Source of the DNA: Symbiotaphrina buchneri
Taxonomy: Eukaryota > Ascomycota > Symbiotaphrinales > Symbiotaphrinaceae
Direction: 5' to 3'
Assembly (NCBI GenBank): GCA_001599915.1
Contig: BCIG01000027.1
Span: 428,161 to 492,160 of the forward strand
Length of the DNA: 64,000 bases
Notes under the pieces: model-generated
Told to the model about the DNA's origin: nothing
The model's database searches: none
The model's input: the letters and a program-made list of their open reading frames with translations, nothing else
Shown here: one piece after another, positions 13,150 through 21,347 of the stretch
How positions within the stretch are numbered: the first letter of the stretch is position 1
How the letters are laid out: each line of letters starts with the position of its first letter
Position numbers and translations under genes: made by a program

Positions 13150-13287
13150 CTCCCCAACAGGGAATCGAACCCTGGTCTCCCGCGGCTTGTTCAAGAGGCC
13201 TTGACAAGCTGACTTTTGTTAGAACGAGTTCGAGAGTGTACAAGTTGATTTACCCACCGGAAATGATCACCACTACACTATTGAGGA
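13150..13287 (-). tRNA. tRNA-Asp(GTC), interrupted twice
   Basis: Mature pieces on the minus strand are 13287-13258 (nt 1-30), 13208-13202 (nt 31-37) and 13184-13150 (nt 38-73), 72 nt in all. The acceptor stem TCCTCAA pairs with TTGGGGA, and the T-arm CAGGG-TTCGATT-CCCTG is perfect. The anticodon stem TCCGC pairs with GCGGG (one T-G wobble) around the loop TTGTCAC, with anticodon GTC. Intron a (13201-13185, 17 nt) follows A37, the canonical site; CTTGTCAAG in the anticodon arm pairs with CTTGAACAAG in the intron. Insertion b (13257-13209, 49 nt) sits inside the anticodon stem between nt 30 and 31. It starts GTGGGT, contains TTCTAAC and ends AGTCAG, like a fungal spliceosomal intron. Box A (TAGTGTAGTGG) and box B (GGTTCGATTCC) are intact. 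Without removal of b no anticodon arm forms, so the gene needs two kinds of processing or is inactive. Confidence 0.78.
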
Positions 13288-20815: not shown

Positions 20816-21157
20816 TGGACCTGATCAATCTATGAAACTGGCTGTTCTTCACCTCGTCCAGCAAGGTCCATTACCCGCCACACGACGTGAGAGGGAATTG
20901 GAAACATCTCCCCTACCACCATGACTGCCTAACAACTATCGCCGACCAACATTATGTCTCTCTGCTGCCAGAGACCAAAGAGGAGGGGATCATCCCATAC
21001 AATACATGTCAGCGAAAATTTGCTTCGGGCGCTCCTTCCGCCGAAACCAATTGTGGATTCCACAAGCACCAGGGAGCTCCTCGTCTCCTGGTTTCTTGCG
21101 CCTTCAATTGTTCTCTGATTCATAAGACAAAATAACCCACCCACTCTTACATAATCA
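20816..21157. other. Spacer upstream of tRNA-Ala
   Basis: 342 bp with no recognisable gene or repeat; 3' flank of the aquaporin gene. Confidence 0.4.
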
Positions 21158-21321
21158 GGGCGCATGGTCTAGTGGTATGATTTCTCTTTAGCATGCCTAT
21201 CTTCTTCTGAAGAATGGCTTGACATAGAGGAGGTCCTGGTAAGCTATCCCTTCCCACCAGTAAGCTCGCAGCAAGACAAATGACTAATATCTTTCAAAGG
21301 GTTCAATTCCCAGTGCGTCCA
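21158..21321 (+). tRNA. tRNA-Ala(AGC), interrupted twice
   Basis: Mature pieces are 21158-21193 (nt 1-37), 21225-21238 (nt 38-51) and 21300-21321 (nt 52-73), 72 nt in all. The acceptor stem GGGCGCA pairs with TGCGTCC and contains the G3-U70 wobble, the alanine identity element. The anticodon stem TCTCT pairs with AGAGG around TTAGCAT, anticodon AGC. Intron a (21194-21224, 31 nt) is at the canonical site after nt 37 and carries GGCT, able to pair with the anticodon. Insertion b (21239-21299, 61 nt) splits the T-stem. It begins GTAAGC, has a TGACTAAT branch-like site 12-18 nt from the end and finishes AAAG. After removal the T-arm CTGGG-TTCAATT-CCCAG is perfect. Box A (TGGTCTAGTGG) and box B (GGTTCAATTCC) are both outside the inserts. 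Confidence 0.8.
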
Positions 21322-21333
21322 ATTGATCATTTC

Positions 21334-21347
21334 TTTTTGGTTTTTTT
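21334..21347 (+). terminator. Pol III terminator T-runs after tRNA-Ala
   Basis: T5 at 21334-21338 and T7 at 21341-21347 start 13 nt after the discriminator base, a normal spacing for RNA polymerase III termination. Confidence 0.7.

Follow-up and report, generated by a model that had tools for sequence, protein, structure and literature searches.

The window (the whole 64-kb stretch of DNA analysed) carries two interrupted tRNA genes, tRNA-Ala(AGC) gene 1 and, on the opposite strand, tRNA-Asp(GTC) gene 2; their features are collected in Table 1 together with the insert sites found elsewhere in the genome. In tRNA-Ala(AGC)-1, a 36-nt exon is followed by the canonical tRNA intron, a 14-nt exon, the 61-nt insert and a 22-nt exon, and the insert interrupts the T-stem past its third base. 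On re-parsing, the coordinates and anatomy reported for this gene in an earlier note on the same DNA, including both insertions and the 72-nt product, proved exact. The joined product has the complete acceptor, anticodon and T stems which that note had described, with 7/7 pairs including G3-U70, 5/5 pairs (one G-U) and 5/5 pairs, respectively, while the D-stem contains one U13-U22 mismatch and one G-U. Further statements of the note were also borne out, namely that the canonical intron is able to pair with the anticodon and that both Pol III boxes are intact. T-runs are present downstream. The A/T-rich sequence upstream of the gene is possibly a TATA-like element, and the CTAAT near the 3' end of the insert would serve as its branch site.

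Table 1. Features of the two tRNA genes of the window, and sites of the additional inserts in tRNA genes across the genome.
Feature	Position in window	Strand	Site (tRNA nt)	Remarks
tRNA-Ala(AGC) gene 1	21158..21321	+		164 nt; mature product 72 nt
A/T-rich element ATAAGACAAAATAA 5' of Ala(AGC)-1	21122..21135	+		by eye
A box TGGTCTAGTGG (Pol III promoter), Ala(AGC)-1	21165..21175	+		intact
Canonical tRNA intron, Ala(AGC)-1	21194..21224	+	37/38	31 nt; includes GCT, complement of anticodon AGC
GT-AG (spliceosomal-type) insert, Ala(AGC)-1	21239..21299	+	51/52	61 nt; GTAAGC...TGACTAATATCTTTCAAAG
Branch-site-like CTAAT, Ala(AGC)-1 insert	21284..21288	+		putative branch A 21287, 12 nt upstream of insert end
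B box GGTTCAATTCC, Ala(AGC)-1	21300..21310	+		intact; first base abuts 3' end of insert
Putative Pol III terminator (T-runs of 5 and 7 T), Ala(AGC)-1	21334..21347	+
tRNA-Asp(GTC) gene 2	13150..13287	-		138 nt; mature product 72 nt
Canonical tRNA intron, Asp(GTC)-2	13185..13201	-	37/38	17 nt
GT-AG insert, Asp(GTC)-2	13209..13257	-	30/31	49 nt; GTGGGT...TTCTAACAAAAGTCAG; anticodon stem
Ala(AGC)-2 insert			13/14
Trp(CCA) insert			51/52
Ile(AAT)-2 insert			53/54
Arg(CCG) insert			19/20
Arg(TCT) insert			52/53
Pro(AGG) insert			52/53
Gln(TTG) insert			52/53
Val(AAC) insert			15/16
Ser(AGA) inserts (2)			15/16 and variable arm
Thr(TGT) insert			32/33
Pro(TGG) insert			23/24
Pro(CGG) inserts (2)			20/21 and 30/31
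Ser(GCT) insert			25/26
Phe(GAA) inserts (2)			30/31 and 52/53
Lys(CTT)-2 inserts (3)			8/9, 28/29 and 55/56

Scans of the window with ARAGORN (bacterial setting) and with Rfam at its gathering score reported no tRNA, Asp(GTC)-2 thus being undetected by either tool; Ala(AGC)-1 obtains an Rfam score of 20.3 bits, below the gathering score of 29. A genome-specific covariance model run over the window returned two tRNAs, Ala(AGC)-1 at 33.9 bits (E 2e-8), with its joined sequence being 1 of the 20 training rows, and Asp(GTC)-2 at 39.5 bits, outside the training set though with its sister Asp(GTC)-1 inside. Since ARAGORN and Rfam miss both genes, related genomes may be mistaken for ones with an incomplete tRNA set.

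The positions of the inserts were checked against the tRNA fold alone. In a fold-only enumeration, every 40-80 nt deletion was combined with a 37/38 intron and scored on tRNA fold and invariant bases. For Ala(AGC)-1, the boundary obtained was exactly that of the 61-nt piece; three shifts by 1 nt scored equally well, and one of these is GT..AG. By examining 12 single-insert genes in this way, it was found that the GT/GC..AG placement lies inside the top tie set (1-14 placements) in 11 of them, or in 12 of 13 once Asp(GTC)-2 is included, whose GT-AG placement falls within a top four-way tie. The exception is Ala(AGC)-2, for which the best fold-only placement is 1 nt from GT-AG and the paralogue backs the GT-AG choice. 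In the four genes with several inserts, all nine were initially positioned manually under the GT-AG rule; when each was tested with the others removed, the chosen placement was in the top tie for seven of the nine, and fold scores favoured other placements for the first Pro(CGG) insert (86 vs 82) and the 112-nt Lys(CTT)-2 insert (89 vs 85). Structure constrains the variable-arm insert of Ser(AGA) poorly, with 219 placements tied at the top. In total, the fold alone does not favour the GT-AG placement in 3 of 22 inserts, namely those of Ala(AGC)-2, the first of Pro(CGG) and the 112-nt one of Lys(CTT)-2.

The genome in which these genes lie is a Pezizomycotina assembly of 23.4 Mb in 82 contigs. 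In a tree of one gene, the HAM1-like protein of the window with 29 named relatives, the protein is placed beside Xylona heveae (support 92/83, end branch 0.61), so that the source is perhaps an ascomycete similar to Xylonomycetes. tRNA genes were sought by an Rfam search, by pattern searches, with the covariance model built from 20 mature tRNAs, and by scans of chosen regions. A first look with Rfam scored 62 of 613 candidates. Pattern searches gave 77, 169 and 121 places, from which 40 regions were examined, nearly all of them picked by eye among the matches listed, and a further pattern search gave 72 places, of which 7 were examined. The nuclear tRNA genes parsed number 46, 17 of them with 22 extra inserts in total and 29 without. 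These numbers are lower bounds, because detection relied on either one type of D-arm or a B box in the vicinity of a T-run, and because the pattern searches overlooked Asp(GTC)-2. Two of the 29 insert-free genes, Lys(CTT)-1 (L016) and Met (L088), were read by hand with one anticodon-stem mismatch each, the automatic parse having given an over-long variable loop.

The 22 inserts are distributed over the D-, anticodon, variable and T-arms and position 8/9, and none is found at 37/38. A separate 37/38 intron is present in 16 of the 17 insert-bearing genes, the one without being Ser(AGA). Among all 46 parsed genes, the 37/38 intron was seen in 42, being absent from Thr(AGT), both Arg(ACG) copies and Ser(AGA), and tRNA genes in this genome were mostly seen as single copies. 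The most heavily interrupted gene, Lys(CTT)-2 (L130; contig C13, 632250-633150, minus strand), has four introns in a length of 340 nt, its tRNA being 73 nt long; given an A-C mismatch at acceptor pair 6-67, the gene may be weak or in decay.

Several tRNA-like loci were set aside and stand outside all counts. Four of them (L019, L073, L030 and L080) gave no clean tRNA parse, the first three even with GT-AG pieces made removable. AT-rich, mitochondrial-looking tRNAs on large contigs (L008, L015 and L029, on contigs C3, C1 and C9) and a tRNA-Cys-like gene on the 24-kb contig C49 (L002) are possibly mitochondrial insertions or part of a mitochondrial contig. No clean nuclear gene for Cys(GCA), Glu(TTC), Gly(GCC), Leu(TAA) or initiator Met was obtained in these searches.

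Splice signals are shared by the inserts to a degree not seen in the canonical tRNA introns. As placed, 20 of the 22 have GT..AG termini and the remaining two GC..AG (both beginning GCAAGT). None of the canonical 37/38 introns tested (38 of the 42 known, with those of Phe, Lys(CTT)-2, Asp(GTC)-2 and Ala(TGC) outside the test and that of Gln entered one base short) could be slid to GT/GC..AG. The coding introns used for comparison number 13, six from beta-tubulin, four from calmodulin, one from each of two H4 genes and one from ubiquitin, and their boundaries were set by eye to restore the protein with GT-AG assumed. G at +5 occurs in 21/22 inserts vs 13/13 coding introns. The motif CTRAY, sought 9-25 nt before the end, was found in 17 of the 22 inserts, whereas shuffled inserts reached a mean of 2.15 and a maximum of 10 in 5000 trials; it is present in 12/13 coding introns and in 1/38 canonical tRNA introns. 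The tested stretch held no CTRAY in the remaining five inserts (Thr(TGT), Pro(TGG), the first of Pro(CGG), Ser(GCT) and the second of Phe). Insert lengths are 49-69 nt, plus one of 112 nt, and those of the coding introns 48-79 nt. The AAG 3' end of the Ala(AGC)-1 insert is found in 2/13 coding introns. The probability that the termini alone arose by chance was calculated as ~10^-41 for 21 inserts with sliding allowed and base composition considered, a value that is too small given the hand placement in four genes; in our judgement, the termini signal survives any reasonable correction for this.

With only the 13 coding introns as training data, a simple splice model was applied to all inserts except that of Asp(GTC)-2. 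It placed the tRNA-derived boundary first in 12 of the 21 inserts and among the top two in 17, and for Ala(AGC)-1 the pair 21239-21299 ranked first of 87 GT/GC..AG pairs around the gene. The inserts scored 12.3-19.9. As controls, the best sense pair stayed below 12.3 in 27 of the 29 insert-free tRNA genes, the best antisense pair reached 12.3 in 6 of the 17 insert-bearing genes, and for 600 pieces of 160 nt drawn at random from the window the best pair had a median score of 9.4, with a 90th percentile of 14.7, a 95th of 16.8 and a maximum of 22.8. Because control scores overlap with those of the inserts, the score by itself is not proof; the evidence lies in its agreement with the boundaries derived from the tRNA fold.

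Judged by sequence, the inserts thus appear to be of U2-type, with GT/GC-AG termini, an extended 5' splice site, CTRAY and the length of host introns. The Ala(AGC)-1 insert is beyond chance, because the same type of insert is found in 16 other tRNA genes. Its identification in the earlier note as probably spliceosomal rather than of the bulge-helix-bulge (BHB) type is strongly supported: both the other tRNA inserts and the coding introns agree with it in length, in the 5' splice site and 3' end, and in the branch motif. The note did not recognise that such inserts occur throughout the genome, nor the second example in the window.

Alternatively, the inserts could be ectopic tRNA introns that the tRNA splicing endonuclease excises at BHB or relaxed motifs, as in archaea, nucleomorphs and Cyanidioschyzon merolae; their GT-AG ends would then be incidental. 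A precedent is provided by C. merolae, in which D-, anticodon- and T-arm introns with BHB motifs occupy similar sites (12/13, 37/38 and 53/54), according to the part of PMC9602550 drawn on here, and D/T-arm inserts are also recorded in nucleomorph genes in the relevant passages of PMC4090602. The BHB check proposed in the earlier note was run on 16 inserts and 38 canonical introns. Of the 4 bp of the core helix, 1-4 pairs are possible in the inserts, including three of four in eight inserts and all four in one, and 0-4 in the canonical introns; the counts overlap, so that the check fails to separate the two groups. In contrast, GT/GC..AG in 22/22 inserts, like their +5 G and CTRAY, is not required for BHB cleavage, and the canonical introns of the same genome lack these termini throughout and CTRAY in all but one case. 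Cleavage of the inserts by the endonuclease is accordingly considered improbable.

Even less probable is that the insert-bearing genes are pseudogenes or otherwise non-functional copies that received random insertions, with intact genes located elsewhere. In the passages of a 2014 review that treat the subject, D/T-arm insertions in eukaryotes are held to lie mostly in one of many synonymous copies, supposed pseudogenes, with nucleomorphs and C. merolae excepted (PMC4090602). In the present genome, insert-free sisters exist for Ile(AAT), Lys(CTT) and Asp(GTC), identical to the insert-bearing copies at 71/73, 70/73 and 62/72 positions, and a truncated tandem remnant of Ala(AGC)-2 (L117; contig C9, 584700-585000, minus strand), which retains the 3' part of the GT-AG insert, adjoins that gene. 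According to the earlier note, intact tRNA-Ala(AGC) genes elsewhere, together with strong divergence of Ala(AGC)-1, would point to a pseudogene. This was not borne out: the only other full-length gene found has a GT-AG insert of its own, at 13/14, and the third copy is the truncated remnant. Ala(AGC)-1 and Ala(AGC)-2 are identical at 60/72 positions and, because their inserts lie at different sites, each serves as an uninterrupted reference for the other.

The wider gene set also argues against decay. Removal of the inserts gives cloverleaves scoring 79-93 in all 17 genes, similar to most insert-free genes, and GT/GC..AG throughout is not expected from random insertions. The genome was searched at the DNA level with joined sequences from 14 insert-bearing genes (all but Phe, Lys(CTT)-2 and Asp(GTC)-2). 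Apart from the query genes themselves, this search, which detects close copies only, returned no intact close copy other than Ile(AAT)-1, together with the truncated Ala remnant. Among the genes found, those of 13 isoacceptors, including Trp, Phe and the three Pro, are all insert-bearing, and the sole Phe(GAA) gene has two inserts; no intact gene for any of the 13 emerged from the searches made, which could have missed intact diverged genes.

A third explanation, in which introner-like mobile elements or other repeats have recently spread and gave the inserts, is the least probable of those weighed. The many independent sites within one gene class do suggest active gain. However, when 16 of the 22 inserts were compared with the whole genome, the only matches were the inserts themselves and the remnant in the duplicated Ala copy, and pairwise similarity among all 22 is about at the shuffled level (best 15, against a null maximum of 14 in 400 shuffled pairs). 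Group I and group II self-splicing introns were rejected as well, the inserts being only 49-112 nt long and the catalytic core of such introns requiring some 200 nt or more.

The Pol III signals were checked in 14 of the 17 insert-bearing genes. T-runs lie within 45 nt in 14/14, which is partly due to how the genes were found. An A-box match was kept in the DNA of 11 and lost in three, and an exact GGTTCRANNC(C) B box is present in 11/14. In Lys(CTT)-2, the inserts at 8/9 and 55/56 interrupt the A and B boxes. Such losses and interruptions could weaken the Pol III promoters. No insert was seen in the one U6 gene and the 16 5S genes found, by searches that favour uninterrupted genes, and a short 18S DNA query gave no match in this genome.

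Taking these observations together, we consider it highly likely, at a probability of roughly 0.88, that the 61-nt piece is a U2-type spliceosomal intron in a Pol III-transcribed nuclear tRNA gene, and belongs to a set of 22 or more such introns spread over 17 or more tRNA genes of this fungus. Under this spliceosomal reading, Pol III would transcribe the interrupted gene from the internal A and B boxes; in genes with a box split by an intron, an A/T-rich element further upstream would probably assist. On the uncapped pre-tRNA, the nuclear spliceosome would then recognise the GTRNGT-like start, CTRAY and the AG end in the manner known for U6 and U3 precursors of fungi, and join the D-arm, anticodon arm or T-arm. 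Only afterwards would the precursor fold and its ends be processed by RNase P and tRNase Z, and the 37/38 intron would be removed last, by tRNA endonuclease and ligase. We infer that the spliceosome acts before the tRNA endonuclease because the latter needs a folded tRNA body.

It is likely, though somewhat less so than the nature of the introns, that the spliceosome is an essential tRNA-maturation enzyme in this lineage, with Pol III pre-tRNAs as routine substrates. At least 13 isoacceptors would depend on it, among them those of the single Trp gene, the single Phe gene and each of the three Pro genes detected; translation would be directly coupled to spliceosome activity, and two unrelated splicing systems would act on each such precursor in a fixed order. 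With more than one third of the parsed tRNA genes affected (17/46), spliceosomes would routinely process uncapped, highly structured Pol III transcripts, and two independent splicing machineries would operate in sequence on one tRNA. Furthermore, the presence/absence pairs in similar paralogues would offer a natural system for the study of intron gain. Spliceosomal introns are generally considered to reside in Pol II genes, apart from a small number of cases that include U6, U3 and lichen rRNA. In a search of 5.39 million open-access papers by titles and abstract starts, no report on spliceosomal introns in tRNA genes was seen among the matches listed, and exact-phrase queries gave no paper.

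Several known systems share individual features with these genes. One such system is given by the mRNA-type introns of fungal U6 snRNA and U3 snoRNA precursors, which are removed by the spliceosome (PMC5832005), with S. pombe U6 and the U3 of S. cerevisiae and Neurospora as examples. In both cases, small structured RNAs are interrupted by introns with mRNA splice signals. Unlike in U6 and U3, the hosts here are tRNAs, many genes are interrupted at many positions with up to three inserts per gene, each transcript would also be the substrate of a second splicing system, and the U6 gene found in this genome is itself insert-free. A further precedent comes from the rDNA of lichen-forming ascomycetes, from which a 57-bp intron in Pol I rRNA was removed by yeast spliceosomes, as described in the consulted part of PMC8527467. 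These are likewise short spliceosomal introns in ascomycete non-coding genes outside Pol II, whereas the present ones are in tRNA genes of Pol III.

In their positions, the inserts resemble the introns of multi-intron tRNAs in C. merolae, in cryptophyte and chlorarachniophyte nucleomorphs and in Crenarchaeota, where D-, anticodon- and T-arm introns occur in addition to 37/38, as far as the relevant portions of PMC9602550 and PMC4090602 describe them. In C. merolae, removal of the anticodon intron is presumed to come after that of the D- and T-arm introns (PMC9602550). A word search of the main text of PMC4090602 gave no match to "spliceosom". The C. merolae introns are described with BHB motifs and those of the Guillardia nucleomorph as 3-24 nt long; in contrast, the inserts of this genome have GT/GC-AG termini, a branch site and the lengths of mRNA introns. 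Lastly, the inserts co-occur with canonical eukaryotic 37/38 introns in all insert-bearing genes except Ser(AGA), and they differ from these introns both in position and in carrying a splice-site consensus.
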